A DNA stretch of 64,000 bases from Mactra quadrangularis (lineage: Eukaryota; Mollusca; Bivalvia; Venerida; Mactridae). The notes under the pieces are model-generated. The model saw only the letters and a program-made list of their open reading frames with translations, was not told the DNA's origin and ran no database searches. The first letter of the stretch is position 1. Each line of letters starts with the position of its first letter. Below are positions 5,915-63,240 of the stretch, in pieces. The translations under genes and the position numbers were made by a program. The DNA lies in the NCBI GenBank assembly GCA_025267735.1, contig CM046301.1, forward strand, positions 15,560,190 to 15,624,189. Reading direction: 5' to 3'.

Positions 5915-6660
5915 AAAGGATTCGTCCCATAATTTTGTACCAATGAAATTAACTTGAGAACATTTGTCGAAAAACAATTTCGAACCCAACATTTTTCTGG
6001 TAACGAAATTATTAAGGGACAATTATTTGTTTACATGTTGATTCGTCCCTTAGTTATTTCTAACCAGAATTATGTCGGAAGTTGATTGATGACGAATATT
6101 TGTTAACATTTTCATTTGTCCCCAAGTTGTTTCGAACCAGAATGTTTTTGGTTACGAAAATATTTGGAGACGAACTTTGTTTTCATATTGATTCGTCCTC
6201 TAGTAGTTTCGAACCTGAATAATTTGAGAATCGAAATGACATTGGGGCGAATCTTAATTTACATTTTGATTTGTTCCCGAGTCATTTCGAACCAGATATT
6301 TTCCGGTTACGAAAATATGTAGGGACGAATCTTGTTTACACTGATTCGTCCCCGAGTTATTTCGAACCAATAATATATCTTGCACTGATTCCTCCCCGAG
6401 AAATTTCGAATAAGATTCTGATCGGTTGAACCCAACTTTCCGGGTACGAAAATATTTGGGAACGAATCTTCGTTTACATTTTGATTCGTCACAGAGTTGA
6501 TTCGAATCGGATTTTTTTCAGTTTCGAAAATATCTGGGGACGATTCCTTGTTTACATTTTGATTCGTCCCCAAGAAATTTCGAATCGGAAGAAATTTGAT
6601 GGCCGTATTTTCTATGTACAGATCATAAGTATTCGTCCCCAATCTTTTCGTACGCAAAAT
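5915..6660. repeat. Degenerate ~77-bp tandem array of an inverted-repeat unit
   Basis: About nine diverged units. Each holds GATTCGTCCCC...TTTCGAACC followed by GGTTACGAAAATATTTGGGGACGAATC, so each unit is itself an imperfect palindrome (TTCGTCCCC against GGGGACGAA, and TTTCG against CGAAA). GATTCGTCC-like landmarks occur near 5920, 6041, 6112, 6190, 6269, 6343, 6388, 6482, 6562 and 6630. A single copy of the same motif lies at 41448. Short frames on both strands are by-products of the repeat. Confidence 0.7.
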
Positions 6661-26700: not shown

Positions 26701-29700
26701 TTCTTCTCATTGAAGTAGACCCAAACAGTACTTCATGTTTGGAAATGATTTTGAAATAAACTAAATGAACTATTTTATAGCTCTTCATAGATAACAGAAT
26801 AATTTCAACATACAATGTACTAGATCCTAACATGTGTATAAGAAAATCAATATTAAGAGTAAACAAATCAACCCCATAAAATATAAATATAGTTTTAAGA
26901 ATAGGCAATAACTGAAATACTAGGAATTGAAGTCCAATTCTTTTTACAGGAAAATTTTTCATGTCTCTGTTTTAATGAGCAATATAAACTTCCCGGTACA
27001 TGCAAGCTTAACAAGAGCTCCGCTGGGCGGGGCATTATACGCCCGTGTGCAGTCCATGCTGTGTTCTATCTCATATAAAGTCACTGTGACCTTGACCAAT
27101 GACCCCGGGATCTCAGAATAGGTCCCATTCTTAACAGGAGGGCTATCCAAAGCAAAGATTTTGAGAACCTAGGTACAGCCATGGTTGACTTATCACCGAC
27201 ACAAAGTTTTCCCATACAAACTTCCAGTGACCTTGACCCTGGGGCCTCAGAACCAAAAGTTCTCGCCCTTGACCCAAAGAGTATTGATACATAAAATTTG
27301 GTAAATCTTAGGTAAAGTTGGTTGTTGGACAAGGTTTTTCCTCATGATTTTTCTTGTGACTTTAACCTTTAACCCAGGGACCTAAAACAAAAGGGGCATA
27401 TGCTAGACATTAAGGCTACCCTTAAATAAAATTTGGAAAACCTACAATGTAGGTACAATTATTATTGAGTAACTGTCCTGAAAATGTTTCAATATGAATT
27501 ATATCCCTGTGACCTTGACTTTTGTCCCTTGGGTTTCCAAATCAAAAGAGAACATCAAATACCAAATAGCTATCAACACATTACATCTTGACAAATGGGC
27601 TGATCCACATAAAATTTGGTTAACCTAGGTACAATCACTGTTTAGTTGTTGTCCGGACAAGGGTTTTCCATATGATGCCCCTGTGACCATGACCTTTGAC
27701 CCAGTTTTGACCAAAAACCAATTGGGAACATCCTTGACACATGGGCTACCCTCACATAACATTTGGTGAACTAAATTCATTTTACTTATTAAATATAGCA
27801 TTATTTCCATGGTTTGCCATTTTGACTTTGTTAACATATTGATTGAACATTTGAAGTCTCTGCTTGGTAATTTGATATATTCTGGATGATGAGTTAAACT
27901 TGACCCAGGGGCCCTCAAATCAATAGGGAACATCCTTGACACATGGGCTACTCTCACATGAAATTTGGTGAACTTAAGTGCAGTCATTGTTGATTTACTA
28001 CACGGACAATGATGCCCCTGTGAACTTGACCTTTGACCCAGGGGCCCAAAAAACAAATAGGACATAACCATGACACATGGGCTACCTTCACATAAAATTA
28101 AGTGAACCTAGGTACATTGGTTGTTCAGTTATTGTCTGGACAAGGTTTTTCCATATGATGCCTCTGTGACCTTGACCTTTGGGTCTGGGGCCCCAAAACC
28201 TATTGGGAACATCCTTGACACAAGGGCTACATTCACATAAAATTTTATGAACCTAGGTACAGTCCTTGTTGAGTTATTGTCCAAACAAGGTTTTTCAATA
28301 TGATGCCTCTGTGACCTTGACCTTTGACCCAGGAGCCCCAAAACCAAAAGGGCATATCCTTGACACAAGGGCTACCCTCACATAGAATTTGATGAACCTA
28401 GGTAAATTGGTGGTTCAGTTATTGCCTGGACAAAAGTTTCATTGTTTGCCATTTTGACTTTATAAAAATATTGATAGAACATATGAAGTCACTGCTTGGT
28501 AATTTGATATCTTCTGGTTGAAGGTTTATACTTAACCCTGTTTCCCCAAAACTGATAAGGCACATCCTTGACACATGGGCTACTGTCACATGAAATTTGG
28601 TGAACTTAGGTACAGTCATTGTTGAGTAATTACCCAGACAATGCTTTTCAATATGAAGCCCCTGTGACATTGACCTTTGACCAAGGCGCCCCAAAACCAA
28701 TAGGGCATAACCTTGACACATGGGCTACTTTCACGCCAAATTTAGTGAACCTAGGTACATTGGTTGTTCAGTTATTGTCTGGACAAGGTTTTTCCATATG
28801 ATGCCTCTGTGACCTTGACCTTTGGGTCTGGGGCCCCAAAACCTATTGGGAATATCCTTGACACAAGGGCTACCTTCACATAAAATTTTGTGAACATAGG
28901 TACAGTAGTTGATGAGTTATTGTCCAAACAAGGATTTTCAATATGATGCCACTGTGACCTTGACCTTTGACCCAGGAGCCCCAAAACCAATAGGGCATAA
29001 CCTTTACCCAAGGGCTACTCTCACATAAAATTTGGAGAACCTAGGTACATTGGTGGTTCAGTTATTGTCTGGACAAGTGTTTCAATGTTTGCCGTTTTGA
29101 CTTTATAAACATATTGATAGAACATTTGAAGTCACAGCTTGGTTATTTGATATCTTCTGGTTTAAGATTTAAACTTAACCCTGTTTTCCCAAAACTTACA
29201 AAGTACATCATTGACACATGGGCTACTCACTCATGAAATTTGGTGAACTTAGGTACAATCATTGTTGAGTAATTACCCGTACAAGGTTTTTCAATATGAT
29301 GCCCCTGTGACCTTGACCTTTGACCAAGGTGCCCCAAAACCAATAGGGCATAACCTTGACACATGGGCTACTTTCACGCCAAATTTAGTGAACCTAGGTA
29401 CATTGGTTGTTCATTTATTGTCTGGACAAGGTTTTTCCATATGATGCCTCTGTGACCTTGACCTTTGGGTCTGGGGCCCCAAAACCTGTTAGGAATATCC
29501 TTGACACAAGGGCTACCTTCACATAAAATTTTGTGAACCTAGGTATAGTAGTTGATGAGTTATTGTCCAAACAAGGATTTTCAATATGATGCCCCTGTGA
29601 CCTTGACTTTTGACCCAGGAGCCCCAAAACCAATAGGGCATAACCTTTACCCAAGGGCTACCCTCACATAAAATTTGGAGAACCTAGGTACATTGGTGGT

Positions 29701-32700
29701 TCAGTTATTGTCTGGACAAGTGTTTCATTGTTTGCCGTTTTGACTTTATAAACATATTGATAGAATATTTGAAGTCACAGTTTGGTAATTTGATATCTTC
29801 TGGTTTAAGATTTAAACTTAACCCTGTTTTCCCAAAACTTACAAAGTACATCCTTGACACATGGGCTACTCTCACATGAAATTTGGTGATTTTAGGTACA
29901 ATCATTGTTGAGTAATTACCCGGACAAGGTTATTCAATATGATGCCCCTGTGACCTTGACCTTTGACCAAGGTGCCCCAAAACCAATAGGGCATAACCTT
30001 GACACATGGGCTACTTTCACGCCAAATTTAGTGAACCTAGGTACATTGGTTGTTCAGTTATTGTCTGGACAAGGTTTTTCCATATGATGCCTCTGTGACC
30101 TTGACCTTTGGGTCTGGGGCCCCAAAACCTATAGGGAATATCCTTGACACAAGGGCTACCTTCACATAAAATTTTGTGAACCTAGGTACAGTAGTTGATG
30201 AGTTATTGTCCAAACAAGGATTTTCAATATGATGCCCCTGTGACCTTGACCTTTGACCCAGGAGACCCAAAACCAATGGGCATAACCTTTACCCAAGGGC
30301 TACTCTCACATAAAATTTGGAGAACCTAGGTACATTGGTTGTTCAGTTATTGTCTGGACAAGTGTTTCATTGTTTGCCGTTTTGACTTTATAAACATTGA
30401 TAGAACATATGAAGTCACAGCTTGGTAATTGTATATCTTCCGGTTTAAGATTTAACTTAACCGTGTTTTCCCAAAACTGATAAGGTACATCCTTGACACA
30501 TGAGCTACTCTCACATGAAATTTGGTGAACCTAGGTACAGTCATTGTTGAGTTATTACCTGGACAATGTTTTTCAATATGATGCCACTGTGACCTTGAAC
30601 TTTGACCCAGGGGCCCCAAAATCAATAGGGCATATCCTTGACACATGGGGTACTCTTACATTAAATTTGGTGAACCTAGGTACATTGATGTTTCAGTTAT
30701 TGTCTGGACAAAGTTTTTCAATATAATGCCCCTGTGACCTTGACCTTTGAACCTGGGGCCCCATAAACCTGTAGGGCACATCTTTGACACATGGGCTACT
30801 CTTACATAAAATTTGGTGAACCTAGGTACAGGCATTGTTGAGTTATGGTCCGGACAAGGTTTTTCAATTTGATGTCCCAGTGACCTTGACCTTTGACCCA
30901 GGGGCCCCAGAACCTATTGGGAACATCCTTGACACATGGGCTTCTCTCACATAAAATTTGGTGAACCTAGGTAGATTGGTTGTTAAGTTATTGTCAGGAC
31001 AAGTTTTTTCCCCATATGATGCCACTGTGACCTTGACCTTTCATGCAGGGGCCCCAAAACCAATAGGGAACATCTTTGACACATGGGCTACTCTTACATT
31101 AAATTTGGTGAACTTAGGTACATTGGTGGTTCAGTTATTGTCCGGACAAGTTTTACCTATTTTAAGTCCCAGTGACCTTGACCTTTAACCCTGGGGTCTC
31201 AAAATCAATAGGGAACTTCCTTCACCCAAGGGCTATCCACACATATAATTTTAGGAACCTAGATATATCCTTTCTTGAGTTATCATCCGGACAAGCAATT
31301 GTCCACGGACGGACAGACTGACAGACGGACGGACAGACGGACAACATCATAACATAATACGACCGTTTTTTCAAAACGGGCGTATAAAAAATGTAATTCT
31401 TCATAGCTATTCAATCATGCTTTAATTCCTACACATTAAACTTGTGCTGATATTTTATTTATTTCATGTTACATATAGACAGATAACAGTTTTTTACACT
31501 GAGTTTAATGCTGTGTCAACACAATTTAGCTTACTTTACGGTGACCAGCACACCTAACCTAGCTTTCCTGGACCCTTGTCTATAACCAGTACTCTCCTAC
31601 CCTTCCACAAGGCCGGCATCTTCTTCACACACCTTATTTATATAATAATGGAGTAAAATTGACATTGTCACTTTTTCATGGACAACAGTAAGTTATTTCT
31701 AACTGTATTAATAAATACATGTATATCATAATTACAAATAAGATGCCATGTAAGAACAATGAATTATCTTTATCCAGATTAAATATGAGAATTTATAAAT
31801 AAAAATGTGAAAAGACTCAAATAATTAAAACAAACCATGAGTAAAACATTTGAAATGAAATTTCAAACTGTGTACAAAAATGTATAAGTGTTAATTCAGG
31901 CTGAATTTTGATAAATTTTGTTACAGTTAAATTTTATTCCATGGTCAGTGGTGCTTACATTAACCCTACTGAGTTAAATACTCAATGTTTGATGGATAAT
32001 ACCCGAAAATCAGATATCTTTTTCATGGATTGTGAGAACAGAAATACTGTGGTGAGTATTTAAATCAGCAGGGTTTTGTGTGACAATGAAATTTATACAT
32101 GCAAATACGACATTGATCATGAAAATTGTGTATAACAAACTATCAAGTATTTTTCTGTAGTTGAAGACAACAGAGTTGGGCATCATCAGTAAAAAAAAGA
32201 ATAATAGAAATCACTATGTATCACATAATAACAATAAGTGAATTACATCCTGCATTGATACTTATTCAAGTTATAGTGGATACATAAGTAAACAAACAAT
32301 TATTTGATTTGAAACAAAACTAACATATTTGCTAATAAGTCTGACCCTATTGGTTGCACAAGTGATTTAAATCTTTTCCCTAGAAGTGTTAAGATAACAA
32401 AAAACATGACACTAATTTTTAATACAGAATATGGGCCTATATTATCATCTGTCGTAAACATGATTCGTTGTACATCTTGCAATACCAGTATGTTATCATA
32501 CTTTTTCATTCATAGTAATATTTTAATAATATTTTGCTCTAGATTATATGTTTTACTATGGATAAATAATACATTTTCCAGACTATTGTTCAATGAAACT
32601 TACTAACTATCAAAAAACAGAAGTAGGCATGGCTGAGTGTTAACATCATTGAACTGGTAATCATTGGATTGCCAGCTCCATGTTGGTTTGAATCTCTTCC

Positions 32701-44173: not shown

Positions 44174-44531
44174 TGAGCGTGACATCAACTACAGCGTGAA
44201 AATTACACCGGGCTAAACTACACTTTATCTTGAATACGTGTAATTCGCTAAATAAACTTTTCAAAAATCAAGGGCCCATTTGATTATCGAAACGTTTTTT
44301 TAGAGAACGTATTATAATTCTCATTTGAATCAATTACCTTATGGAATTAAGCATTCCACTTATAATAACACACTTGAAAATTCCTAATAAGCATCATTTT
44401 ACCTATTTCTTTTCAACTCTGTGATATTTTTCTAAGTCATTTCGGTCTGCGAAAATCTTAATTTGATCTTTCATAGCCCCGAATTTTTAGTTTATTATTG
44501 TCTTTTAAAATGCATTATGTTTAAAGAAGTA

Positions 44532-44860
44532 TGAACGTAAAGTTGGCAGACTCAGCAGACACAGCAGACACAGCAGAAGGAACGATCCTTCTGCTGTGTC
44601 TGCTGGCAGAAGGATAAATCTACAGCAGAAGGAACGATCCTTCTGCTGTGTCTGCTGGCAGAAGGATACATTTACAGCAGAAGGATCAATCTTTCTGCTG
44701 GGTCTGCTGACAGAAGGATTGAATTATAACAGAAAGATGTGTCTGTTGGCAGAAAGATTTTATAATAACAGAAAGATGTGTCTGCTGGCAGAAGGATTAA
44801 ACAACAACAGAATCAATCTTTCTGCCACGTCTGTTGGCAGAATAATTGAATTATAATTTC
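44532..44860 (+). repeat. Left outer domain of the giant foldback element
   Basis: Short repeats of CAGCAGAAGGA / TCCTTCTGCTG, separated by spacers such as TAAATCTA, TACATTTA and TTGAATTATAA, so the domain is itself full of small palindromes (AGAAGGAACGATCCTTCT). An 86-aa frame here only translates the repeat. It matches the right outer domain in reverse, with about two differences. Confidence 0.9.
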
Positions 44861-47800
44861 AAGCCTCAATTTAAGCAAAACATGTGATATTATGCATCAT
44901 TTTAAAGCTGATAGTTATGAAAATGTTTTGATGAGTACATTTTGAACAGTAAATAAAGAATAAGGGCCTGGTGAGTAAACAAAACAGGCCCATTTCGAAT
45001 GTGAATTTTGTGTTCGACTGACATCCTTCTGCTGTTATTTAACACATGTTTTATTAATCATTTTATCTATCTGTTCACAAAATCAAATTTTATACAGAAC
45101 AAGCTTTAATCTGGTATATAGATGTGCGATAAACTCTATTTAATTGCGACAATTTGAACGTTAATATATCGAGTACGAAAATTCTCAGTGCGGAAGTTCG
45201 GTTCGATATTTTCATTAGAAAAGTGACAATACATGCTATTTACCGAGTCTTATTTTAAGCCACATTTAAGACAAAATATGCGATATTATGCATCATTTTA
45301 AAGCTTATACATAGAAAAAGGTTTAGACAGGTCGATTTTGAATTTTTGTAAAAGAATAACAACAAGACGAGTGTATAAAGTAGCCCTATTTTCGGACGTA
45401 CATTTTGGTTTGAGTGACATCCTTCTGCTATAAATAAATACACGTATTCTAAATTAATTTAAAAACTAAATCACAAAATCAAACTGGCAATAGAATAAGC
45501 TTTCTTTTGATGTATATATGAGTGAATAACTCGACTTAATTTGGACAAAATATATGTTTATATGTCAAGTTCGTAAATTCACCCGACCACAGATTGGTTT
45601 GATTTTTTCATTGAAATGTGCGAAAACATGCTAATTACCGAGTCTTATTGTAAGCCTTAATTTAGGCAAAACATGTCATATAATGCATCATTTTAAAGCT
45701 GATTGTTGTAAAAATGTTTTGACGGGTACATTTTGAACAGCAAATAAATAATAAGGGCCTGGTGAGTAAACAAAACAGGCCCATTTTCGAATGTGAATTT
45801 TGTGTTCGACTGACATCCTTCTGCTGTTATTTAACACATGTTTTATTAATCATTTCATCTATCTGTTCACAAAATCAAATTTTATATAGAACAAGCTTTA
45901 ATCTGGTATAAAGATGTGCGATAAACTCTATTTAATTGCGACAATTTGAACGTTAATATATCGAGTACGAAAATTCTCAGTGCGGAAGTTCGGTTCGATA
46001 TTTTCATTAGAAAAGTGACAATACATGCTATTTACCGAGTCTTATTTTAAGCCACATTTAAGACAAAATATGCGATATTATGCATCATTTTAAAGCTTAT
46101 ACATAGAAAAAGGTTTAGACAGGTCGATTTTGAATTTTTGTAAAAGAATAACAACAAGACGAGTGTATAAAGTAGCCATATTTTCGGACGTACATTTCGG
46201 TTTGAGTGACATCCTTCTGCTATAAATAAATACACGTATTCTAAATTAATTTAAAAACTAAATCACAAAATCAAACTGGCAATATAATAAGCTTTCTTTT
46301 GATGTATATATGAGTGAATAACTCGACTTAATTTGGACAAAATATATGTTTATATGTCAAGTTCGTAAATTCACCCGACCACAGATTGGTTTGATTTTTT
46401 CATTGAAATGTGCGAAAACATGCTAATTACCGAGTCTTATTGTAAGCCTTAATTTAGGCAAAACATGTCATATAATGCATCATTTTAAAGCTGATTGTTG
46501 TAAAAATGTTTTGACGGGTACATTTTGAACAGCAAATAAATAATAAGGGCCTGGTGAGTAAACAAAACAGGCCCATTTTCGAATGTGAATTTTGTGTTCG
46601 ACTGACATCCTTCTGCTGTTATTTAACACATGTTTTATTAATCATTTCATCTATCTGTTCACAAAATCAAATTTTATATAGAACAAGCTTTAATCTGGTA
46701 TAAAGATGTGCGATAAACTCTATTTAATTGCGACAATTTGAACGTTAATATATCGAGTACGAAAATTCTCAGTGCGGAAGTTCGGTTCGATATTTTCATT
46801 AGAAAAGTGACAATACATGCTATTTACCGAGTCTTATTTTAAGCCACAATTAAGACAAAATATGCGATATTATGCATCATTTTAAAGCTTATACATAGAA
46901 AAAGGTTTAGACAGGTCGATTTTGAATTTTTGAATAAGAATAACAACAAGACGAGTGTATAAAGTAGCCCTATTTTCGGACGTACATTTCGGTTTGAGTG
47001 ACATCCTTCTGCTATAAATAAATACACGTATTCTTAATTAATTTAAAAACTAAATCACAAAATCAAACTAGCAATAGAATAAGCTTTCTTTTGATGTATA
47101 AAAGAGCGAATAACTCGACTTAATTTGGACAAAATATATGTTTATATATCAAGTTCGTAAATTCACCCGACCACAGATTGGTTTGATTTTTTCATTGAAA
47201 TGTGCGAAAACATGCTAATTACCGAGTCTTATTGTAAGCCTTAATTTAGGCAAAACATGTGATATTATGCATCATTTTAAAGCTGATTGTTGTAAAAATG
47301 TTTTGACGGGTACATTTTGAACAGCAAATAAATAATAAGGGCCTGGTGAGTAAACAAAACAGGCCCATTTTCGAATGTGAATTTTGTGTTCGACTGACAT
47401 CCTTCTGCTGTTATTTAACACATGTTTTATTAATCATTTCATCTATCTGTTCACAAAATCAAATTTTATATAGAACAAGCTTTAATCTGGTATATAGATG
47501 TGCGATAAACTCTATTTAATTGCGACAAATTATACGTTAATATATCGAGTACGAAAATTCTCAGTGCGGAAGTTCGGTTCGATATTTTCATTAAAAAAGT
47601 GCCAATACATGCTATTTACCGAGTCTTATTCTAAGCCACATTTAAGACAAAATATGCGATATTATGCATCATTTTAAAGCTTATACATAGAAAAAGGTTT
47701 AGACAGGTCGATTTTGAATTTTTGTAAAAGAATAACAACAAGACGAGTGTATAAAGTAGCCCTATTTTCGGACGTACATTTTGGTTTGAGTGACATCCTT

Positions 47801-50800
47801 CTGCTATAAATAAATACACGTATTCTTAATTAATTTAAAAACTAAATCACAAAATCAAACTGGCAATAGAATAAGCTTTCTTTTGATGTATATAAGAGTG
47901 AATAACTCGACTTAATTTGGACAAAATATATGTTTATATGTCAAGTTCGTAAATTCACCCGACCACAGATTGGTTTGATTTTTTCATTGAAATGTGCGAA
48001 AACATGCTAATTACCGAGTCTTATTGTAAGCCTTAATTTAGGCAAAACATGTCATATAATGCATCATTTTAAAGCTGATTGTTGTAAAAATGTTTTGACG
48101 GGTACATTTTGAACAGCAAATAAATAATAAGGGCCTGGTGAGTAAACAAAACAGGCCCATTTTCGAATGTGAATTTTGTGTTCGACTGACATCCTTCTGC
48201 TGTTATTTAACACATGTTTTATTAATCATTTCATCTATCTGTTCACAAAATCAAATCTTATATAGAACAAGCTTTAATCTGGTATAAAGATGTGCGATAA
48301 ACTCTATTTAATTGCGACAATTTGAACGTTAATATATCGAGTACGAAAATTCTCAGTGCGGAAGTTCGGTTCGATATTTTCATTAGAAAAGTGACAATAC
48401 ATGCTATTTACCGAGTCTTATTTTAAGCCACATTTAAGACAAAATATGCGATATTATGCATCATTTTAAAGCTTATACATAGAAAAAGGTTTAGACAGGT
48501 CGATTTTGAATTTTTGTAAAAGAATAACAACAAGACGAGTGTATAAAGTAGCCATATTTTCGGACGTACATTTCGGTTTGAGTGACATCCTTCTGCTATA
48601 AATAAATACACGTATTCTAAATTAATTTAAAAACTAAATCACAAAATCAAACTGGCAATAGAATAAGCTTTCTTTTGATGTATATATGAGTGAATAACTC
48701 GACTTAATTTGGACAAAATATATGTTTATATGTCAAGTTCGTAAATTCACCCGACCACAGATTGGTTTGATTTTTTCATTGAAATGTGCGAAAACATGCT
48801 AATTACCGAGTCTTATTGTAAGCCTTAATTTAGGCAAAACATGTCATATAATGCATCATTTTAAAGCTGATTGTTGTAAAAATGTTTTGACGGGTACATT
48901 TTGAACAGCAAATAAATAATAAGGGCCTGGTGAGTAAACAAAACAGGCCCATTTTCGAATGTGAATTTTGTGTTCGACTGACATCCTTCTGCTGTTATTT
49001 AACACATGTTTTATTAATCATTTCATCTATCTGTTCACAAAATCAAATTTTATATAGAACAAGCTTTAATCTGGTATAAAGATGTGCGATAAACTCTATT
49101 TAATTGCGACAATTTGAACGTTAATATATCGAGTACGAAAATTCTCAGTGCGGAAGTTCGGTTCGATATTTTCATTAGAAAAGTGACAATACATGCTATT
49201 TACCGAGTCTTATTTTAAGCCACAATTAAGACAAAATATGCGATATTATGCATCATTTTAAAGCTTATACATAGAAAAAGGTTTAGACAGGTCGATTTTG
49301 AATTTTTGAATAAGAATAACAACAAGACGAGTGTATAAAGTAGCCCTATTTTCGGACGTACATTTCGGTTTGAGTGACATCCTTCTGCTATAAATAAATA
49401 CACGTATTCTTAATTAATTTAAAAACTAAATCACAAAATCAAACTAGCAATAGAATAAGCTTTCTTTTGATGTATATAAGAGCGAATAACTCGACTTAAT
49501 TTGGCTAAAATATATGTTTATATATCAAGTTCGTAAATTCACCCGACCACAGATTGGTTTGATTTTTTCATTGAAATGTGCGAAAACATGCTAATTACCG
49601 AGTCTTATTGTAAGCCTTAATTTAGGCAAAACATGTGATATTATGCATCATTTTAAAGCTGATTGTTGTAAAAATGTTTTGACGGGTACATTTTGAACAG
49701 CAAATAAATAATAAGGGCCTGGTGAGTAAACAAACCAGGCCCATTTTCGAATGTGAATTTTGTGTTCGACTGACATCCTTCTGCTGTTATTTAACACATG
49801 TTTTATTAATCATTTCATCTATCTGTTCACAAAATCAAATCTTATATAGAACAAGCTTTAATCTGGTATATAGATGTGCGATAAACTCTATTTAATTGCG
49901 ACAAATTATACGTTAATATATCGAGTACGAAAATTCTCAGTGCGGAAGTTCGGTTCGATATTTTCATTAAAAAAGTGCCAATACATGCTATTTACCGAGT
50001 CTTATTCTAAGCCACAATTAAGACAAAATATGCGATATTATGCATCATTTTAAAGCTTCTACATAGGAAAAGGTTTAGACAGGTCGATTTTGATTTTTTG
50101 TAAAAGAATAACAACAAGACGAGTGTATAAAGTAGCCCTATTTTCTGACGTACATTTCGGTTTGAGAGACATCCTTCTGCTATATATAAATACACGTATT
50201 CTTAATTAATTTAAAAACTAAATCGCAAAATCAAACTGGCAATAGAATAAGCTTTCTTTCGATGTATATATGAGTGAATAACTCGACTTAATTTGGACAA
50301 AATTTATGTTTATATGTCAAGTTCATAAATTCACCCGACCACAGATTGGTTTGATTTTTTCATTGAAATGTGCGAAAACATGCTAATTACCGAGACTTAT
50401 TGTAAGCCTAAATTTAGGCAAAACATGTGATATTATGCATCATTTTAAAGCTGATTGTTGTAAAAATGTTTTGACGGGTACATTTTGAACAGCAAATAAA
50501 TAATAAGGGCCTGGTGAGTGAACAAAACAGGCCCATTTTCGAATGTGAATTTTGTGTTCGATTGACATCCTTCTGCTGTTAATAAAAACATGTTTTATTA
50601 ATTATTTCACCAATGTATTCACAAAATCAAATTTTATATAGAACAAGCTTTAATCTGGTATATAGATGTGCGATAAACTCTATTTAATTGCGACAAATTT
50701 TACGTTTATATATCGAGTACGAAAATTCTCAGTGCGGAAGTTCGGTTCGATATTTTCTATAAAAAAGTGCCAATACATGCTATTTACCGAGTCTTATTCT

Positions 50801-53800
50801 AAGCCACAATAAAGACAAAATATGCGATATTATGCATCATTTTAAAGCTTATACATAGAAAAAGGTTTAGACAGGTCGATTTTGAATTTTTTTTTAAGAA
50901 TAACAACAAGACGAGTGTATAAAGTAGCCCTATTTTCGGACGTACATTTCGGTTTGAGTGACATCCTTCTGCTATAAATAAATACACGTATTCTTAATTA
51001 ATTTAAAATCTAAATCACAAAATCAAACTAGCAATAGAATAAGCTTTCTTTTGATGTATATAAGAGCGAATAACTCGACTTAATTTGGACAAAATATATG
51101 TTTATATATCAAGTTCGTAAATTCACCCGACCACAGATTGGTTTGATTTTTTCATTGAAATGTGCGAAAACATGCTAATTACCGAGTCTTATTGTAAGCC
51201 TTAATTTTGGCAAAACATGTCATATAATGCATCATTTTAAAGCTGATTGTTGTAAAAATGTTTTGACGGGTACATTTTGAACAGCAAATAAATAATAAGG
51301 GCCTGGTGAGTAAAGAAAACAGGTCCATTTTCGAATGTGAATTTTGTGTTCGACTGACATCCTTCTGCTGTTATTTAACACATGTTTTATTAATCATTTC
51401 ATCTATCTGTTCACAAAATCAAATTTTATATAGAACAAGCTTTAATCTGGTATATAGATGTGCGATAAACTCTATTTAATTGCGACAAATTATACGTTTA
51501 TATATCGAGTACGAACATTCTCAGTGCGGAAGTTCGGTTCGATATTTTCTATAGAAAAGTGCCTATACATGCTATTTACCGAGTCTTATTTTAAGCCACA
51601 ATTAATACATAATATGCAATATTATGCATCATTTTAAAGCTTATACATAGAAAAAGGTTTAGACAGGTCGATTTAGAATTTTTGTAAAAGAATAACAGCA
51701 AGACGAGTGTATAAAGTAGCCCTATTTTCGGACGTACATTTCGGTTTGAGTGACATCCTTCTGCTACAAATAAATACACGTATTATTAATTGATTTAACA
51801 AACAAATCACAAAATCAGACTGGCAATAGAATAAGCTTTCTTTTAATGTATAAATAAGTGAATAACTCGACTTAATTTGGACAAAATATATGTTTTTATG
51901 TCAAGTTCGTAAATTTACCCGACCACAGTTTGGTTTGATTTTTTCATTGAAATGTGCAAAAACGTGCTAATTACCGAGTCATATTGTAAGCCTAAATTTA
52001 GGCACAACATGTGATATTATGCATCATTTTAAAGCTGATTGTTGTAAAAATGTTTTGACGGGTACATTTTGAACAGCAAATAAATAATAAGGGCCTGGTG
52101 AGTAAACAAAACAGGCCCATTTTCGAATGTGAATTTTGTGTTCGACTGACATCCTTCTGCTGTTATTTAACACATGTTTTATTAATCATTTCATCTATCT
52201 GTTTACAAAATCAAATTTTATCTAGAACAAGCTTTAATTTGGTATATAGATGTGCGATAAACTCTTTTATATTGCGACAATTTGAACGTTAATATATCGA
52301 GTACGAAAATTCTCAGTGCGGAAGTTCGGTTCGATATTTTCATTAAAAAAGTGCCAATACATGCTATTTACCGAGTCTTATTTTTAGCCACAATTAAGAC
52401 AAAATATGCGATATTATGCACCATTTTAAAGCTTATACATAGAAAAAGGTTTAGACAGGTCGATTTAGAATTTTTGTAAAAGAATAACAGCAAGACGAGT
52501 GTATAAAGTAGCCCTATTTTCGGACGTACATTTCGGTTTGAGTGACATCCTTCTGCTATAAGTAAATACACGTATTTTTAATTCATTTAAAATTTGAATC
52601 ACAAAATCAAACTGGCAATAGAATAAGCTTTCTTTTAATGTATAAATAAGTGAATAACTCGACTTAATTTGGGCAAAATATATGTTTTTATATCAAGTTC
52701 GTAAATTTACCCGACCACAGTTTGATTTGATTTTTTCATTGAAATGTGCGAAAACATGCTAATTACCGAGTCATATTGTAAGCCTAAATTCAGGCAAAAC
52801 ATGTGATATTATGCATCATTTTAAAGATGATTGTTGTAAAAATGTTTTGACGGGTACATTTTGAACAGTAAATAAATAATAAGGGCCTATTGAGTAACCA
52901 AAGCAGGCCCATTTTCGAATGTGAATTTTGTGTTCGACTGACATCCTTCTGCTGTTATTTAACACATGTTTTATTAATCATTTCATCTATCTGTTTACAA
53001 AATCAAATTTTATCTAGAACAAGCTTTAATTTGGTATATAGATGTGCGATAAACTCTTTTATATTGCGACAATTTGAACGTTAATATATCGAGTACGAAA
53101 ATTCTCAGTGCGGAAGTTCGGTTCGATATTTTCATTAGAAAAGTGCCAATACATGCTATTTACCGAGTCTTATTTTTAGCCACAATTAAGACAAAATATG
53201 CGATATTATGCACCATTTTAAAGCTTATACATAGAAAAAGGTTTAGACAGGTCGATTTAGAATTTTTGTAAAAGAATAACAGCAAGACGAGTGTATAAAG
53301 TAGCCCTATATTCGGACGTACATTTCGGTTTGAGTGACATCCTTCTGCTATAAATAAATACACGTATTTTTAAATTATTTCAAATTTGAATCACAAAATC
53401 AAACTGGCAATAGAATAAGCTTTCTTTTAATGTATAAATGAGTGAATAACTCGACTTAATTTGGACAAAATATATGTTTTTATGTCAAGTTCGTAAATTT
53501 ACCCGACCACAGTTTGGTTTGATTTTTTCATTGAAATGTGCAAAAACGTGCTAATTACCGAGTCATATTGTAAGCCTAAATTTAGGCAAAACATGTGATA
53601 TTATGCATCATTTTAAAGCTGATTGTTGTAAAAATGTTTTGACGGGTACATTTTGAACAGCAAATAAATAATAAGGGCCTGGTGAGTAAACAAAACAGGC
53701 CCATTTTCGAATGTGAATTTTGTGTTCGACTGACATCCTTCTGCTGTTATTTAATACATGTTTTATTAATCATTTCATCTATCTGTTTACAAAATCAAAT

Positions 53801-56303
53801 TTTATATAGAACAAGCTTTAATTTGGTATATAGATGTGCGATAAACTCTATTATATTGCGACAATTTGAACGTTAATATATCGAGTACGAAAATTCTCAG
53901 TGCGGAAGTTCGGTTCGATATTTTCATTAAAAAAGTGACAATACATGCTATTTACCGAGTCTTATTTTTAGCCACAATTAAGACAAAATATGCGATATTA
54001 TGCACCATTTTAAAGCTTATACATAGAAAAAGGTTTAGACAGGTCGATTTAGAATTTTTGTAAAAGAATAACAGCAAGACGAGTGTATAAAGTAGCCCTA
54101 TTTTCGGACGTACATTTCGGTTTGAGTGACATCCTTCTGCTATAAGTAAATACACGTATTTTTAATTTATTTAAAATTTGAATCACAAAATCAAACTGGC
54201 AATAGAATAAGCTTTCTTTTAATGTATAAATGAGTGAATAACTCGACTTAATTTGGACAAAATATATGTTTTTATGTCAAGTTCGTAAATTTACCCGACC
54301 ACAGTTTGGTTTGATTTTTTCATTGAAATGTGCAAAAACGTGCTAATTACCGAGTCATATTGTAAGCCTAAATTTAGGCAAAACATGTGATATTATGCAT
54401 CATTTTAAAGCTGATTGTTGTAAAAATGTTTTGACGGGTACATTTTGAACAGCAAATAAATAATAAGGGCCTGGTGAGTAAACAAAACAGGCCCATTTTC
54501 GAATGTGAATTTTGTGTTCGACTGACATCCTTCTGCTGTTATTTAACACATGTTTTATTAATCATTTCATCTATCTGTTTACAAAATCAAATTTTATATA
54601 GAACAAGCTTTAATTTGGTATATAGATGTGCGATAAACTCTATTATATTGCGACAATTTGAACGTTAATATATCGAGTACGAAAATTCTCAGTGCGGAAG
54701 TTCGGTTCGATATTTTCATTAAAAAAGTGCCAATACATGCTATTTACCGAGTCTTATTTTTAGCCACAATTAAGACAAAATATGCGATATTATGCACCAT
54801 TTTAAAGCTTATACATAGAAAAAGGTTTAGACAGGTCGATTTAGAATTTTAGTAAAAGAATAACAGCAAGACGAGTGTATAAAGTAGCCCTATTTTCGGA
54901 CGTACATTTCGGTTTGAGTGACATCCTTCTGCTATAAGTAAATACACGTATTTTTAATTTATTTAAAATTTGAATCACAAAATCAAACTGGCAATAGAAT
55001 AAGCTTTCTTTTAATGTATAAATAAGTTAATAACTCGACTTAATTTGGGCAAAATATATGTTTTTATATCAAGTTCGTAAATTTACCCGACCACAGTTTG
55101 ATTTGATTTTTTCATTGAAATGTGCGAAAACATGCTAATTACCGAGTCATATTGTAAGCCTAAATTCAGGCAAAACATGTGATATTATGCATCATTTTAA
55201 AGATGATTGTTGTAAAAATGTTTTGACGGGTACATTTTGAACAGTAAATAAATAATAAGGGCCTATTGAGTAACCAAAGCAGGCCCATTTTCGAATGTGA
55301 ATTTTGTGTTCGACTGACATCCTTCTGCTGTTATTTAACACATGTTTTATTAATCATTTCATCTATCTGTTCACAAAATCAAATTTTATATAGAACAAGC
55401 TTTAATTTGGTGTATAGATGTGCGATAAACTCAATTTAAATGCGACAAATTATATGTATATATATCGAGTACGAAAATTCTCAGTGCGGAAGTTGGGTTC
55501 GATATTTTCAATAAAAAAGTGCGAATACGTGCTTTTTACCGAGTCTTATTTTAAGCCACAATTAAGAAAAACACGTGATAGTATGCATCATTTTAAAGCT
55601 TATACATAAAAAAAGGTTTCGACAGGTCGATTTTGAATTTTCGTAAAAGAATAACAGCAAGACGAGTGTAAAAGTAGCCCTATTTTCGGACGTACATTTC
55701 GGTTTGAGTGACATCCTTCTGCTACAAATAAATACACATATTTTAAATTAATTTACCAACCAAATCACACAATCTGACTGGCAATAGAATAAGCTTTCTT
55801 TTGGTGTATAAATGAGTGAATAACGCGTCTTCATTTGGACAAAATATATGTTTATATATCAAGTTCGTAAATTCGCCCGACCACAGTTTGGTTTGATTTT
55901 TTCATTGAAATGTGCGAAACATGCTAATTACCGAGTTTTATTTTAAGCCACAATTTAGACAAAACTTGTGATATTATGCATCATTTTAAAGCAGATTGTT
56001 TGAAAAATGTTTTGACAGGTACATTTTGAACAGTAAATAAATAATAAGGGCCTGGTGAGTGAACAAAACAGGCCCATTTTCGAATGTGAATTTTGTGTTC
56101 GATTGACATCCTTCTGCTGTTAATAAAAACATGTTTTATTAATTATTTCACCAATGTATTCACAAAATCAAATTTTATATAGAACAAGGTTTGTTTTGGT
56201 GTATAAATGTGAGATTAACTCATTTTAATTGCGACAAAATATATGTATTTAAATATATCAAGTACGAAAATTCTCAGTACGAAAGTTCGGTTCGAATTTT
56301 TCT
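44861..56303 (+). repeat. Left satellite array, ~14.5 units of 792 bp
   Basis: Landmark CCTTCTGCTGTTATTTAA (with variants) occurs about every 792 bp from 45025 to 56110, and CCTTCTGCTATAAATAAA (with variants) halfway between from 45420 to 55715. The 792-bp unit is thus a dimer of two diverged ~396-bp monomers. Each monomer shares a CATTTTAAAGCT box, an ACCGAGTCTTATT box and a GACATCCTTCTGCT box. Units at 2,376-bp distance in the left part are more alike than neighbours, which indicates a three-unit higher-order repeat. Divergence rises towards 55.4-56.3 kb. Frames of 62-67 aa recur in every unit; I treat them as by-products. Confidence 0.93.
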
Positions 56304-56545
56304 CACATTTGTATACCAAAAGAAAGCTTGTTCTATATATAATTTTATTATAGATTGAATAGATTGGTGAATTAATTTTATAAAAGATGTATTTATTAAT
56401 AGCAGAAGGATGTCGATCTGTCGAACAAAAGTTTACATTTGAAAATGGGTCTGTTTTGTCCACTCGCAGTGCCCTTATTGTTGACTTATTTTTCAAAATG
56501 TACCCGTGAAAACATTTTCCAAACAATCAGCCTGAAAATGATGAA
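56304..56545 (-). repeat. Short satellite fragment in reverse orientation
   Basis: At about 56303 the array switches strand: the sequence CAAAAGAAAGCTTGTTCTAT, then AGCAGAAGGATGTCGATCTG and AAAATGGGTCTGTTTTGTCC, is the complement of the array consensus. About one diverged half unit is present before the central region begins. This switch is the tip of a local palindrome. Confidence 0.8.
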
Positions 56546-59480
56546 ATTCTGACAGTAAGGCTTTACTGCTGTACTGCTGTACTGCCGTTACTGCTGTCTT
56601 CACATACATGCACTAATTGACACTTATTTTTTTTAAATTGAAAAATGTTCACTAGAAAACTGAGGACCTTAAAAGATTCTCCTTAAAAATCAATCACAGT
56701 GATTGTTACTTTTTGTTTTAGATACAAATGAGTACAAAGTTATTTACTTCTTGATCAAAGGTTGAAGCACATAGTGCAGAAACCTCAATCAAAAAGCAAA
56801 ACAATATTTGTACATGAAATACATTTATTTCTATGGTTGCGGGGATCCAAACAGAGTGCAAGTACCAAGTAATTACCCCGGTTATTTTTAACGGGGTAAT
56901 TGGATCTTTAGGATTGGAGATCCTTTTCTATTTATTAAGTTTAAAGCCAAATTTTGACATATTGATGTAGAAATCAAAACTATTTAGGGAAATAAACTTT
57001 AATTGTATAAACTATATATACTTATAAAGGTTTTTTAAGATTAATATTCCAGCTATTTTCATTTCTAGGGTGGAATATAATGTTAACAAAGTGTGAAAAA
57101 TCTAAAATATTGAGAATTTTAGTTCTGAAATTTGAAATTCTTATGTTTTTAATATTGTTAATGTCATTTGGTTTATATTACAATGCTTCCATTGATACTA
57201 TTATGTTTAATGACATCTTTATATGTCTCCAATCCATAAAGAGTGATTTTTTTGTAAAAATTTAAGGTTTTTAACCCTAATATGCAGTCTTTTATTGAAG
57301 GAGATGGGCAAAAAATTGTCCTTTTTGTCAAAAATATCATACTTTTCAGTATTTAGTATATGTAAGGTAGTAATTAAATAGAAGAAATAATAAAATTGGT
57401 GTTTTCCAAACCCGGAAAGTTATTCAGAATGATGTTTTTAAAGAATTTGACCCTGTTTTGTTTAATAATTTTTGGTTTTAGGTCTATGTATTTTGCTATT
57501 TAGTAAAAATCACTTGAATTTTAAACAAAACTAGTGGATAACAGTTTATATAAGAGGTTTAAATTACCTCATTGTTATAGTTTTATAGTTTATTATGTGA
57601 AAAATAGCCATTTAAATGGTATTTTCTGCATTATGGTGTTATGTATACAGATTTCATTGAAACTCTTGAGGTACTTGCACTTATATTGGGTGATATAAAT
57701 GAAATAGACTGAGAATGGGGGCTCTAGATCTTATCGGTCATTTGGCAATCAACTATATAAGTTTCTAGAGCCATATAGACTGAACTCCTGACCGCCTTGC
57801 TTGGATCTAGTAGGATCTGGATGTCAAAGGGGACATCACTGAAACCCATTGTTGCCTTTAGGAGCTCAATTTTGGCTCCAAATGGTGTAGGAGTATTTTG
57901 GAAGCTCCTGTGGCAGAATGAACCAGTCCCAATGATGGCATTCTGGTTTTTTTTTAATTTTTTTGGTTTGAGCCCTGGCCCAGAATTTAACAGCCTGCCC
58001 AGACCTGAAAATGAGTGGCATGACTCCTGCCTCTGCTTCTAAAAGATGCTGTGGGGTGGTTGGTAAGGCCCTTAGAGCAATTCTCAATGCTTAATTCTGT
58101 ATAATATTTAGTCTTTGGAGTTGGGAGGGGCTAGTTACAGAATAAATTTCAGCTCCATATTCATTTTTTGATCTTGTGAGAGATTTGTACATTAGTAATA
58201 GACTGTTTTAATCAGTATTCTAAAAAGTAAAAAGTAAATCAGTATTCAAAAAAATCCGAGCACGTTAAAAGATTCCTTGTAAAAAATCACATTGACTGGT
58301 ACCTTTAATTTTTGTAACAAAAGATTAAAAGTTACACACAATGTAGTGTACTTTTTGAATGAAATCTTCTGTACAGAGCACAAAAGACTCAATCCATAAG
58401 TACTATAGAAAAAGTTAAACAATAGTATTGTATTATTAATTGCGGGGATCCCAAAATAGTGCAAATACCAAGTAACTACCCCGGTTTATTAAACATATCC
58501 GGGGTAATTGGATCTTATGGACCGGAGAACCTGTTGATATATTAGTATACATATGTCAGTTGTTGACATATTTTTGAAAACTCTATAATATTTTCTTAAG
58601 AGTTATTCATTTTGATAATTTTTTTCAGTATTGGAACAGAAAATGAACTTTAATAGGTGTTCCAATAGATTTTTTGTTGATTTTTTAGTAAAAATATAAT
58701 GTGAAATTCTAAAACCTAAGACATTTTAGCTCTAATTTAAAAGAATTTTGTCATTAGGTATATTAATGAAGTTTTTGATATATATATTACTGTGTTTAAG
58801 ATGGTAATTTCAGGTCTTTTGTTTCTTTTACAGGTTCCTAACCCATAATTAGTTTAAGAAATTGTTGAATTAAAGGTTTTAAAGCCTTTTAATAGGCTAA
58901 ATTGTATAAAATTTGTATTAAAATAGACAAAATAATGTCTTTTTGTAGTAAAAAACATAAATTTCCACATTATATGATTAAAATATATATATTCTTGTAT
59001 AGTAGGAATTTAATAATGTAAAATAATTTTAAGATTCAACAGCTTTGTTGAATATTTGTTAAATTTATGGGTTTTAGTAACCCGGCAAGTCTGGTAATAG
59101 TGTTTTATCTGGGTAAAAAGACCCTGATAATGTATATTTAAGTAGGATTTGCATCCTAGGATATATCTAATTACAATGAAGTTAAGGCATTTTTAATTTT
59201 GCTAGTAAATAGCATTAAAATTAGAGGTTTTGGGTACCTCAGAATTGATTTTAAGTCTTTTCAGTACTTTCAAATAAGTTTAATTCGATGTTTTAACTGC
59301 ATTTTGGTGTTTTTATGCAGTGTATATGTAACTCATATGGTATTTGCACTTAATTGGGTGGAATAAATGAAATAGACTGAATTTGTGGGACCTAGATTTT
59401 GTCTTTCATTGTAGATTACTATGTAGATCTCTAGAGCCCTATAGACTGAGGTTCTAACTGCCTTGCTAGGATCACCACCA
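56546..59480 (+). repeat. Central domain: diverged ~1.6-kb tandem duplication
   Basis: Two units, about 56640-58240 and 58245-59475, share TTGCGGGGATCC, a TACCCCGG ... hairpin ... GGGGTAATTGGATCTT block (56871-56905 and 58475-58515), AATGAAATAGACTGA and a final CTAGAGCC-TATAGACTGA segment leading to GCCTTGCT-GGATC. Similarity is patchy, so the duplication is old. Frames up to 81 aa occur but none shows a domain. This is where a transposase would be expected in a complete foldback element, and I see none. Confidence 0.7.
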
Positions 59481-62400
59481 AATAACACCAAAATAAATCT
59501 TATTCTATTGTTAGTCTGATTTTGCGAATAGGTTGGTAAATTAATAAAAAAAATCGTGTATTTATTAATAGCAGAAGGGTGGCAGTCAAACCCAAATTTA
59601 TATCCGAAAAACAGGGCTAACTTCTACACTCGCCATGCTGTTATTCTTTATTATTTTTTTTCCCAAATAGACATTTCAAAACATTTTTAATTTGATGCAT
59701 AATGTGTAAGGTTTAAGTCGAAACATTCTCGAAAATTGCTCTCGAAAATAGACCTGTTACTAGTCATTTCACAAAAAAGACCGAACCCAAATATCATTTA
59801 GAAAAAACTCAAACATCGATCCAGTTAGTATCGTTCGGCCTTATAAAAATCGAGTTTTGTATGTTAATATATATCAAAAGAAAGCTTGTTTTATCTTCAA
59901 TCTGATTATGTGTATGGATTTGTAAAATACATAGTCAAACATGTTTTTGTTTACAGCAGAAGGATGTCAGTCGAACACAAATTCACATTCAAAAATTGGC
60001 CTGTTTGTACACTCGACAGGCCCTTATTGTTTATTTATAGTTCTAAATTTACCCGTCAAAACATTTTCCAAACAATCAGCTTGAAAATGATGCATAAAAG
60101 CACATGTTTTAACTTAGTTGTGGTTTAAAATAAGAATCGGTAGTCAGCATGTATTTGCACATTTTTTGAAAATATCGAACCGAACTTTCGTTCTGAGAAT
60201 TTTCGTACTTGACATATTTAAATACATATATTTTGTCGCAATTAAAATGAGTTTATCGCACATCTGTATACCAGATTAAAGCTTATTCTATATAAAATTT
60301 GATTTTGTGAACAGATAGATGAAATGATTAATAAAACATGTGTTAAATAACAGCAGAAGGATGTCAGTCGAACACAAAATTCACATTCGAAAATGGGCCT
60401 GTTTTGTTTACTCACCAGGCCCTTATTATTTATTTGCTGTTCAAAATGTACCCGTCAAAACATTTTTACAACAATCAGCTTTAAAATGATGCATAATATC
60501 ACATGTTTTGCCTAAATTAAGGCTTACAATAAGACTCGGTAATTAGCATGTTTTCGCACATTTCAATGAAAAAATCAAACCAATCTGTGGTCGGGTGAAT
60601 TTACGAACTTGATATATAAACATATATTTTGCCCAAATTAAGTCGAGTTATTCGCTCTTATATACATCAAAAGAAAGCTTATTCTATTGCCAGTTTGATT
60701 TTGTGATTTAGTTTTTAAATTAATTAAGAATACGTGTATTTATTTATAGCAGAAGGATGTCACTCAAACCGAAATGTACGTCCGAAAATAGGGCTACTTT
60801 ATACACTCGTCTTGTTGTTATTCTTATACAAAAATTCAAAATCGACCTGTCTAAACCTTTTTCTATGTATGAGCTTTAAAATGATGCATAATATCGCATA
60901 TTTTGTCTTTATTGTGGCTTAGAATAAGACTCGGTAAATAGCATGTATTGGCACTTTTTTAATGAAAATATCGAACCGAACTTCCGCACTGAGAATTTTC
61001 GTACTCGATATATAAACGTATAATTTGTCGCAATTAAATAGAGTTTATCGCACATCTATATACCAGATTAAAGCTTGTTCTATATAAAATTTGATTTTGT
61101 GAACAGATAGATGAAATGATTAATAAAACATGTGTTAAATAACAGCAGAAGGATGTCAGTCGAACACAAAATTCACATTCGAAAATGGGCCTGTTTTGTT
61201 TACTCACCAGGCCCTTATTATTTATTTGCTGTTCAAAATGTACCCGTCAAAACATTTTTACAACAATCAGCTTTAAAATGATGCATTATATCACATGTTT
61301 TGCCTAAATTAAGGCTTACAATAAGACTCGGTAATTAGCATGTTTTCGCACATTTCAATGAAAAAATCAAACCAATCTGTGGTCGGGTGAATTTACGAAC
61401 TTGATATATAAACATATATTTTGTCCAAATTAAGTCGAGTTATTCGCTCTTATATACATCAAAAGAAAGCTTATTCTATTGTCAGTTTGATTTTGTGATT
61501 TAGTTTTTAAATTAATTAAGAATACGTGTATTCATTTATAGCAGAAGGATGTCACTCAAACCGAAATGTACGTCCGAAAATAGGGCTACTTTATACACTC
61601 GTCTTGTTGTTATTCTTATACAAAAATTCAAAATCGACCTGTCTAAACCTTTTTCTATGTATATGCTTTAAAATGATGCATAATATCGCATATTTTGTCT
61701 TAATTGTGGCTTAGAATAAGACTCGGTAAATAGCATGTATTGGCACTTTTTTAATGACAATATCGAACCGAACTTCCGCACTGAGAATTTTCGTACTCGA
61801 TATATTAACGTTCAAATTGTCGCAATTAAATAGAGTTTATCGCACATCTATATACCAGATTAAAGCTTGTTCTATATAAAATTTGATTTTGTGAACAGAT
61901 AGATGAAATGATTAATAAAACATGTGTTAAATAACAGCAGAAGGATGTCAGTCGAACACAAAATTCACATTCGAAAATGGGCCTGTTTTGTTTACTCACC
62001 AGGCCCTTATTATTTATTTGCTGTTCAAAATGTACCCGTCAAAACATTTTTACAACAATCAGCTTTAAAATGATGCATTATATCACATGTTTTGCCTAAA
62101 TTAAGGCTTACAATAAGACTCGGTAATTAGCATGTTTTCGCACATTTCAATGAAAAAATCAAACCAATCTGTGGTCGGGTGAATTTACGAACTTGATATA
62201 TAAACATATATTTTGTCCAAATTAAGTCGAGTTATTCACTCTTATATACATCAAAAGAAAGCTTATTCTATTGCCAGTTTGATTTTGCGATTTAGTTTTT
62301 AAATTAATTAAGAATACGTGTATTTATTTATAGCAGAAGGATGTCACTCAAACCGAAATGTACGTCCGAAAATAGGGCTACTTTATACACTCGTCTTGTT

Positions 62401-62899
62401 GTTATTCTTATTCAAAAATTCAAAATCGACCTGTCTAAACCTTTTTCTATGTATAAGCTTTAAAATGATGCATAATATCGCATATTTTGTCTTAATTGTG
62501 GCTTAAAATAAGACTCGGTAAATAGCATGTATTGGCACTTTTCTAATGAAAATATCGAACCGAACTTCCGCACTGAGAATTTTCGTACTCGATATATTAA
62601 CGTTCAAATTGTCGCAATTAAATAGAGTTTATCGCACATCTATATACCAAATTAAAGCTTGTTCTATATAAAATTTGATTTTGTGAACAGATAGATGAAA
62701 TGATTAATAAAACATGTGTTAAATAACAGCAGAAGGATGTCAGTCGAACACAAAATTCACATTCGAAATGGGCCTGTTTTGTTTACTCACTAGGCCCTTA
62801 TTCTTTATTTACTGTTCAAAATGTACTCATCAAAACATTTTCATAACTATCAGCTTTAAAATGATGCATAATATCACATGTTTTGCTTAAATTGAGGCT
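59481..62899 (-). repeat. Right satellite array, ~4.3 units of 792 bp, reverse orientation
   Basis: The complement of the left array: AGCAGAAGGATGTCAGTCGA near 60354, 61144, 61936 and 62727, alternating with AGCAGAAGGATGTCACTCAA near 60749, 61541 and 62333. The first copy (59500-60130) is diverged and the outer ones nearly match the left-array consensus. The arm is about 8 kb shorter than the left one. Confidence 0.92.
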
Positions 62900-63229
62900 T
62901 GAAATTATAATTCAATTATTCTGCCAACAGACGTGGCAGAAAGATTGATTCTGTTGTTGTTTAATCCTTCTGCCAGCAGACACATCTTTCTGTTATTATA
63001 AAATCTTTCTGCCAACAGACACATCTTTCTGTTATAATTCAATCCTTCTGCCAGCAGACCCAGCAGAAAGATTGATCCTTCTGCTGTAAATGTATCCTTC
63101 TGCCAGCAGACACAGCAGAAGGATCATTCCTTCTGCTGTAGATTTATCCTTCTGCCAGCAGACACAGCAGAAGGATCGTTCCTTCTGCTGTGTCTGCTGT
63201 GTCTGCTGAGTCTGCCAACTTTACGTTCA
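62900..63229 (-). repeat. Right outer domain of the giant foldback element
   Basis: The reverse complement of 44532-44860, including every spacer. Differences seen by eye are GGAATGATCC against GGAACGATCC, and one G/A in GCTGGCAG against GCTGACAG. Such identity points to a recent insertion or to ongoing correction between arms. Confidence 0.9.
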
Positions 63230-63240
63230 TTAAAGAAGTA

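Follow-up and report, generated by a model that had tools for sequence, protein, structure and literature searches.

The window analyzed in this study is the whole 64,000-bp stretch G000:C9:15560190-15624189 of the bivalve Mactra quadrangularis, and all results come from a single assembly of its genome (979 Mb, 447 contigs). Positions 44531-63230 of the window are occupied by an element of 18,700 bp, in which two arrays of long satellite monomers lie in opposite orientation inside inverted terminal domains, with a short core between them. The element belongs to a family with the same ends and with 9-bp target duplications; the ends and the core are kept in this family while the arrays vary, and two near-identical copies lie at different sites. 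The element is very probably a non-autonomous foldback DNA transposon that is moved by an outside transposase, most likely of the Mutator type, and carries a satellite array in each arm along with a dead core.

Architecture of the element

On its left side, the element is bordered by the target-site duplication TAAAGAAGT (44522-44530, plus strand), a direct repeat of the same 9-bp length as in the sibling copies, and starts with a 330-bp terminal domain (44531-44860, plus strand). This domain opens with ATGAACGTAAAGTTGGCAGAC and continues with units of about 52 and 39 bp that hold clustered copies of the motif CAGCAGAAGGAT in both directions. The left satellite array (44861-56303, plus strand) consists of 29 monomers of about 396 bp, in which types A and B alternate and the last monomer is truncated. 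It is followed by the inner junction (56303-56559, minus strand), a short inverted piece of a monomer in the right-arm orientation, which is kept at 95-99% in the siblings where read, and by the core of about 2.9 kb (56560-59484, no strand assigned). The right arm begins with a stretch made of a strongly diverged monomer and a junction (59485-59952, minus strand) and proceeds through the right satellite array (59953-62900, minus strand), opposite to the left one, to the right terminal domain (62901-63230, minus strand), an inverted copy of the left domain, and the second copy of TAAAGAAGT (63231-63239, plus strand).

The outer parts of the arms, 44531-47893 and 63230-59867, pair in inverted orientation with 95.6% identity, and the outermost 329 bp of the terminal domains align without gaps and differ at two positions (99.4% identity). 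The satellite period of 396 bp extends over 44861-56300 and 59953-62900 in opposite orientation. Both the near-identical inverted outer domains and the opposed arrays inside them had been described in the initial annotation of this locus. Long inverted ends with tandem repeats flanking a middle domain, as expected of foldback elements, were found both in the window and in the copies that were read.

The initial annotation had placed the element at 44532-63229 and given it an 11-bp duplication, TTAAAGAAGTA. Its span of about 18.7 kb and the direct repeat at both borders hold, and the limits and the length of the duplication are corrected here. TTAAAGAAGTA has exactly two exact copies in the window, at 44521 and 63230; its matches with one mismatch (7 in all versus 4.5 expected) do not rise above chance, so the weight rests on the two exact copies sitting at both borders. 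The inverted repeat extends one base further on each side (A...T) than first given, which sets the limits of the element at 44531-63230 and shortens the duplication to the 9-mer TAAAGAAGT. Sibling copies with a perfect duplication show the same length, 9 bp, and in none of them does the match extend to 10 or 11. The two extra matching letters at the borders in the window are the terminal A and T of the element itself, a coincidence.

No gene is recognizable in the core: its frames have no Pfam match, and it consists at least partly of degenerate 3' ends of long interspersed nuclear elements (LINEs). Its two halves are related, with 74-76% identity where they can be aligned. The LINE debris includes the stop-ridden end of a second open reading frame, ORF2 (57833-58215, minus strand; 71.6% DNA identity to L092, tblastn E-value 2e-36), and a CTGTACTG-type tail (56544-56609, minus strand), which is 94% identical over 66 bp to the 3' end of a non-LTR (long terminal repeat) retrotransposon in another copy. 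A fuller non-LTR retrotransposon related to this debris was found in the right arm of the copy C3_37.9 (L109:4896-9000, L092, L110:1-434); its ORF1 of 613 aa contains a zinc knuckle just below the Pfam cut-off, and its ORF2 contains endonuclease and reverse-transcriptase domains. The core looks like a passenger. The interior of C3_37.9, read in part, was considered as an autonomous parent of the family and rejected, as it holds this retrotransposon, satellite in the right-arm direction on both sides, and no transposase.

Satellite monomers and their shared motif

The monomers have a period of 396 bp, and 26 of the 29 left monomers are exactly of this length as cut; the right arm contains about seven to nine monomers versus 29 in the left one. 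Types A and B are about 70% alike, and monomers of the same type among L01-L28 and R01-R07 are 90-100% alike. The innermost monomers are the most diverged (86-92% for L29, and 62-73% for R08, which runs into the junction). The left array contains a copied block, where L03-L08 and L09-L14 match position by position at 96-100%. The outermost monomers of the two arms, L01 and R01, are 99% alike, versus 96% for L01 and L03, which suggests that the arms share their outer ends through descent or correction and that their middles expanded separately. In the window and in the sibling copies that were read, these arrays lie inside elements, with the qualification that the copies were located via their ends.

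With at most one mismatch allowed, the element contains 50 occurrences of CAGCAGAAGGAT, and the rest of the window contains none. Six sites lie in each terminal domain, in both directions, one lies in the inner junction, and one is found in each monomer of the left (29/29) and right (8/8) arrays with a near-constant spacing of 396 bp. The motif is also present in most monomers of the other copies, so that nearly every monomer overall has it; gaps in its positions mark one monomer without the motif in C6a, two in C1_11.2, and one in C7_5.8.

The presence of CAGCAGAAGGAT in both the terminal domain and the monomer, together with the precedent of Galileo, whose tandem repeats contain additional transposase-domain sites (PMC3688188, in excerpt), suggests that the motif may be a transposase site and that the arrays may multiply such sites. 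Only slightly short of even, in our estimate, is the chance that the shared motif is a mere relic of the origin of the monomer with no role in movement. Indeed, it is not the best-kept stretch between the monomer types, since it is outlasted by a 24-bp box (reached in 1.7% of shuffles), and its own 15-bp run is not significant alone (a second-longest run of at least 15 bp arises in 9% of shuffles); the few monomers of other copies that lack it within one mismatch fit a relic as well. On the other hand, its retention in every monomer of both window arrays and in most monomers elsewhere, and the similar layout of sites in Galileo, argue for a function. A more far-reaching version would make each monomer a transposition signal, where more transposase sites yield a better transposon and the growth of the arrays is driven by transposition itself, where the same ends could carry units as small as about 1.4 kb, others of tens of kilobases, and perhaps some of about 100 kb. 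We regard this version as speculative and rather doubtful.

Copies, target duplications, and recent movement

The initial annotation had anticipated other copies with these ends in the same genome. The 20-mer that defines the end has 325 exact occurrences (163 forward and 162 reverse), versus 0+0 for its reversed-letter control; the match being exact, diverged copies are uncounted. Pairings of opposed ends were drawn from the first 100 of the 325 ends, 68 of which were used in 34 pairings, and the window was added as the 35th. Perfect 9-bp duplications flank 23 of these, three match at eight of nine positions, and nine have none. Five further pairings, four obtained via a second listing (the first ones shown of 154 ends) and one via a left-over end, comprise three perfect 9-bp duplications, one 8-bp repeat, and one case without a duplication. 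Overall, perfect duplications were found at 26 of the 40 pairings, two of the 26 sharing one target.

Among the 28 pairings with ends 5-40 kb apart, 23 have a perfect duplication, one matches at eight of nine, one has an 8-bp repeat, one is a mispaired nested end, and two have none; the comparison of flanks proposed in the initial annotation thus revealed duplications at most large pairings. When flanks of different copies were cross-paired, nine of nine positions agreed in 2 of 1190 combinations and eight of nine in one, and both full agreements come from C1_102 and C2_111, two long units with a common target. The 22 tabulated duplications have a G+C content of 31%, versus 32% in the window, and show no full consensus, with T at position 5 in 14/22 and A or T at position 3 in 20/22. 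Dispersed copies with target duplications are likewise a feature of foldback elements. Two candidate pairs were discarded: C1_21.6 contains a nested end, and its right end belongs to a pairing of 36.4 kb; C1_58 was also rejected as a pair.

Seven copies longer than 5 kb were read completely, and their numbers of monomer boxes in the left and right arms are 29+8 (the window), 17+10 (twice), 8+5, 4+14, 7+5, and 7+4. The six copies other than the window have both terminal domains, which are 95-99% identical to those of the window. All or part of the core is present at 93-98% identity in six of the seven, with C6b assigned to these because it is nearly identical to C6a; no core match was obtained in C7_5.8, C6_7.9 retains most of the core, and the core of C5_12.5 holds a 3.3-kb insertion. 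Twenty probes placed in four copies of 26-38 kb (C3_37.9, C6_27.8, C4_26.5, and C4_26.6) detected satellite of opposite direction on the left and right sides of each; C6_27.8 and C4_26.5 also gave core hits, and in C4_26.6 all four probes fell in satellite.

Recent movement is indicated by two copies on contig 6 (C6a and C6b), which lie about 47 kb apart. Both are 14,375 bp long, with 17+10 monomer boxes each, and they differ by two substitutions and no gap (99.986% identity). Their duplications are different (GAAAAATCC versus CATGTACTT), and the flanking sequences do not match over about 1 kb on either side. This pair is hard to explain except by a recent transposition of the whole satellite-bearing unit. 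Near-identical copies with different flanks and different duplications also indicate that this is no isolated oddity and no simple joining error of the assembly. The proposal of a mobile satellite, in which the whole array-bearing structure moves as a unit, is supported by this pair at two sites and by the duplications at 23/28 large pairings.

In the 23 copies compared, among them C1_21.6 and C6_15.1, left and right ends of the same copy have a mean identity of 96.0%, versus 93.4% for those of different copies, and none of 5000 shuffles gave a value as high. The ends of C1_17.2 are 97% alike mutually and at most 84% alike to those of any other copy, and represent a more distant branch; this pattern points to arm-to-arm correction or recent rebuilding.

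Some other arrangements of the ends and arms were observed. Seven mini-copies of 0.18-0.54 kb (L009-L015) carry both ends; three of them, of 0.2 kb, have common flanks and therefore sit in another repeat. Locus L020 (G000:C8:18855500-18856900) contains three right-end motifs in the same orientation within 1.1 kb; two of these are 893 bp apart, a spacing that is found again at C8:33554434/33555327. At G000:C4:17466688-17471791 (L101:688 to L102:791), about 5 kb of other DNA in a satellite arm has, as judged by eye, inverted ends of the TCCTAAAACACTGACC type. The 3.3-kb insertion in the core of the 12.5-kb copy (L021:6527-9841) has inverted TGCGCAACG/CGTTGCGCA ends, also by eye, and contains no frame of at least 80 aa.

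Proposed mechanism, alternatives, and related elements

We propose that a transposase that comes from outside the element and most likely belongs to the Mutator superfamily would recognize the 330-bp terminal domains and move everything between them, arrays and dead core included, probably by cut-and-paste, leaving a 9-bp duplication. Between moves, the arrays would lengthen or shorten through unequal exchange or slippage, and the two arms may correct each other. The outcome would be the dispersal of satellite DNA along chromosomes via transposition.

Several observations weigh against this mechanism. No duplication was found at C6_15.1 and C8_23.2, and C11_17.0 has only an 8-bp one; 32 of the 100 listed ends have no opposed exact end in the pairings (one of these ends, C1:36557598, was paired later), and six of the seven mini-copies shorter than 0.6 kb have no duplication. 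About 20 kb of other DNA lies in the right arm of C3_37.9 and about 5 kb in the left arm of C4_26.5, so that the full length of the largest units need not have moved at once. The left end is closest to the right end of its own copy in only 5 of 23 copies, and thus the arms are not strictly paired lineages. Retrotransposon apart, neither the window element nor seven sibling copies have an open frame of their own of at least 120 aa, since the sole other frame of this size, of 127 aa in C6b, runs in from the flank. Finally, 43 matches to the domain of Mutator-like elements (MULEs) were found in the genome, and the eight best of these loci, of about 3.3 kb each, have none of these ends within about 1.5 kb, a narrow view that was compared with an incomplete list of ends.

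Target duplications measure about 8-11 bp in the Mutator superfamily and 7-8 bp in the P superfamily, the latter including Galileo with 7 bp; Helentrons and HINEs are not known to have either target duplications or terminal inverted repeats (TIRs). Galileo and FB elements are also smaller than the element described here. The 9-bp duplications observed in this family fall within the Mutator range and outside that of P and Galileo, and the presence of both duplications and TIRs differs from Helentrons and HINEs. In combination with the accounts that the Tetris, Tm1, and Pack-TIR papers give of their elements, this length suggests a Mutator-type transposase acting in trans. It is possible, if fairly unlikely, that the transposase comes from another superfamily, whether P/Galileo-like, IS4EU-like, or undescribed. 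In that case, the likeness to the Mutator foldbacks would be one of architecture and duplication length only. The foldback shape may evolve in different lineages (PMC4079207, in excerpt), and the analysis revealed no coding element that has these ends, which are also lacking around the eight best MULE matches. However, the duplications at 26/40 pairings agree with those of Tetris (8-10 bp; PMC4079207) and Tm1 (9 bp; PMC3169594, in excerpt), both placed in Mutator by their authors, and resemble the 9-10 bp of FB4, which is held to be more likely a MULE (PMC8277862, in excerpt).

It is very improbable that the family spread mainly via segmental duplication or ectopic recombination between satellites. 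Duplication does occur in the family, as seen from the common target and near flanks of C1_102 and C2_111 and from the common flanks of the three 0.2-kb mini-copies, and many ends are closest to the end of another copy. Nevertheless, the other perfect sites have differing 9-bp duplications, which are the product of insertion and not of duplication, and the non-matching flanks of the two 14.4-kb copies speak for transposition as well. That the assembler joined opposed satellite arrays can be practically discounted: near-identical repeats exceeding the read length can be misplaced in the one assembly used here, but joining arrays wrongly would not place identical 9-bp duplications on the two sides of 23/28 large pairings, and the order of parts is alike in several copies, even if array lengths could still be off.

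The ends of C1_102 and C2_111 (G000:C1:33786033-33888089 and C2:34839499-34950303) bound 102 and 111 kb, respectively, with the common 9-bp duplication TGTTTTGGG. On each side, the two units align at 96-98% across about 1 kb of the end plus 300 bp of flank, and the interiors are 97.6-99% identical at three overlapping sample spots; the flanks 4-5 kb out do not match. These units were rejected as giant copies or parents, as 20 interior probes of 1 kb gave no satellite, terminal, or core match, and none of the 43 MULE matches lies within them. They look like one locus copied once, in which some 100 kb of other DNA lies between the ends, possibly as a macro-transposon.

Elsewhere in the window, an unbroken open frame at 8694-9830 encodes a DHHC palmitoyltransferase, for which the best match is a Mactra antiquata protein (65%) and the next named matches are from Ruditapes, Mercenaria, Mya, and Dreissena. 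An array of 145-bp units (also with a period of 291 bp) forms five blocks at 28009-31262, with no kinship to the element seen. At 5977-6369, a tandem repeat of about 78 bp contains GGGACGAATC units; L079, which lies within the 102-kb unit, has a frame pattern that looks similar by eye. Searches with Rfam at the gathering score and a tRNA scan yielded no matches, and scans of viral contigs with two motifs found nothing.

The family bears on the long-standing question of how satellite DNA gets to new chromosomal sites, with some two dozen independent footprints detected in a single genome from an incomplete set of ends, and on the size attainable by a DNA transposon without genes of its own. In copies with common ends and differing array lengths, dispersal, array growth, and arm-to-arm homogenization could be measured. 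No published description of the family was found in a literature search, subscription papers being outside its reach.

Several known systems share parts of this design. Tm1, a Mutator foldback of root-knot nematodes, has composite inverted repeats, variable tandem units, 9-bp duplications, and non-autonomous forms, but its units are of about 14 bp, its end motifs are asymmetric, and a transposase-coding copy of the Phantom type is known (PMC3169594). Long, internally repetitive inverted ends are common to Galileo and FB (PMC3688188, PMC8277862), the TIRs of FB4 being about 700 bp (PMC8277862). The Cg_HINE Helentrons of oyster are likewise mobile elements of a bivalve and spread satellite-like tandem repeats; they are described with a central array between two modules (PMC7492417, in excerpt), in contrast to the opposed arrays in inverted arms and the target duplications found here. 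The Ising TE (transposable element) of Drosophila, in which foldbacks are said to bound mobile segments of hundreds of kilobases, recalls the C1_102/C2_111 unit, but it is a composite of chromosomal DNA between foldbacks and has no satellite arms in the excerpted account (PMC6431247).

The nearest published design, by architecture and sequence homology apart, is Tetris, a foldback element of Drosophila virilis. It likewise has a flanking domain, tandem units (TIR-220), and a non-coding middle, with no transposase in the excerpted account; its duplications are of 8-10 bp versus 9 bp here, and its flanking domain and tandem unit have a common stretch of 37 bp, versus the 12 bp of CAGCAGAAGGAT in our family (PMC4079207). 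The statement of the initial annotation that tandem units of foldbacks are usually short needs correction in that long units in foldback arms were already on record, with the 220-bp units of Tetris. As for its suggestion of a possible new foldback family, Tetris is a precedent for the long-unit arms, and what is unusual is the arm length together with continued mobility. The TIRs of Tetris are up to 1.7 kb long, with three structurally complete copies (PMC4079207), whereas here the 396-bp monomer is repeated 29 times in one arm of the complete window copy, and two different sites hold an intact copy with 27 monomer boxes. The authors of the Tetris study suggested that foldback elements seed satellites and, noting TIR-220 arrays of up to 66 copies, that larger arrays may have disrupted transposition (PMC4079207). 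The family described here is a counter-case to the latter suggestion, as it has long arrays and, judging by the pair on contig 6, has moved recently.

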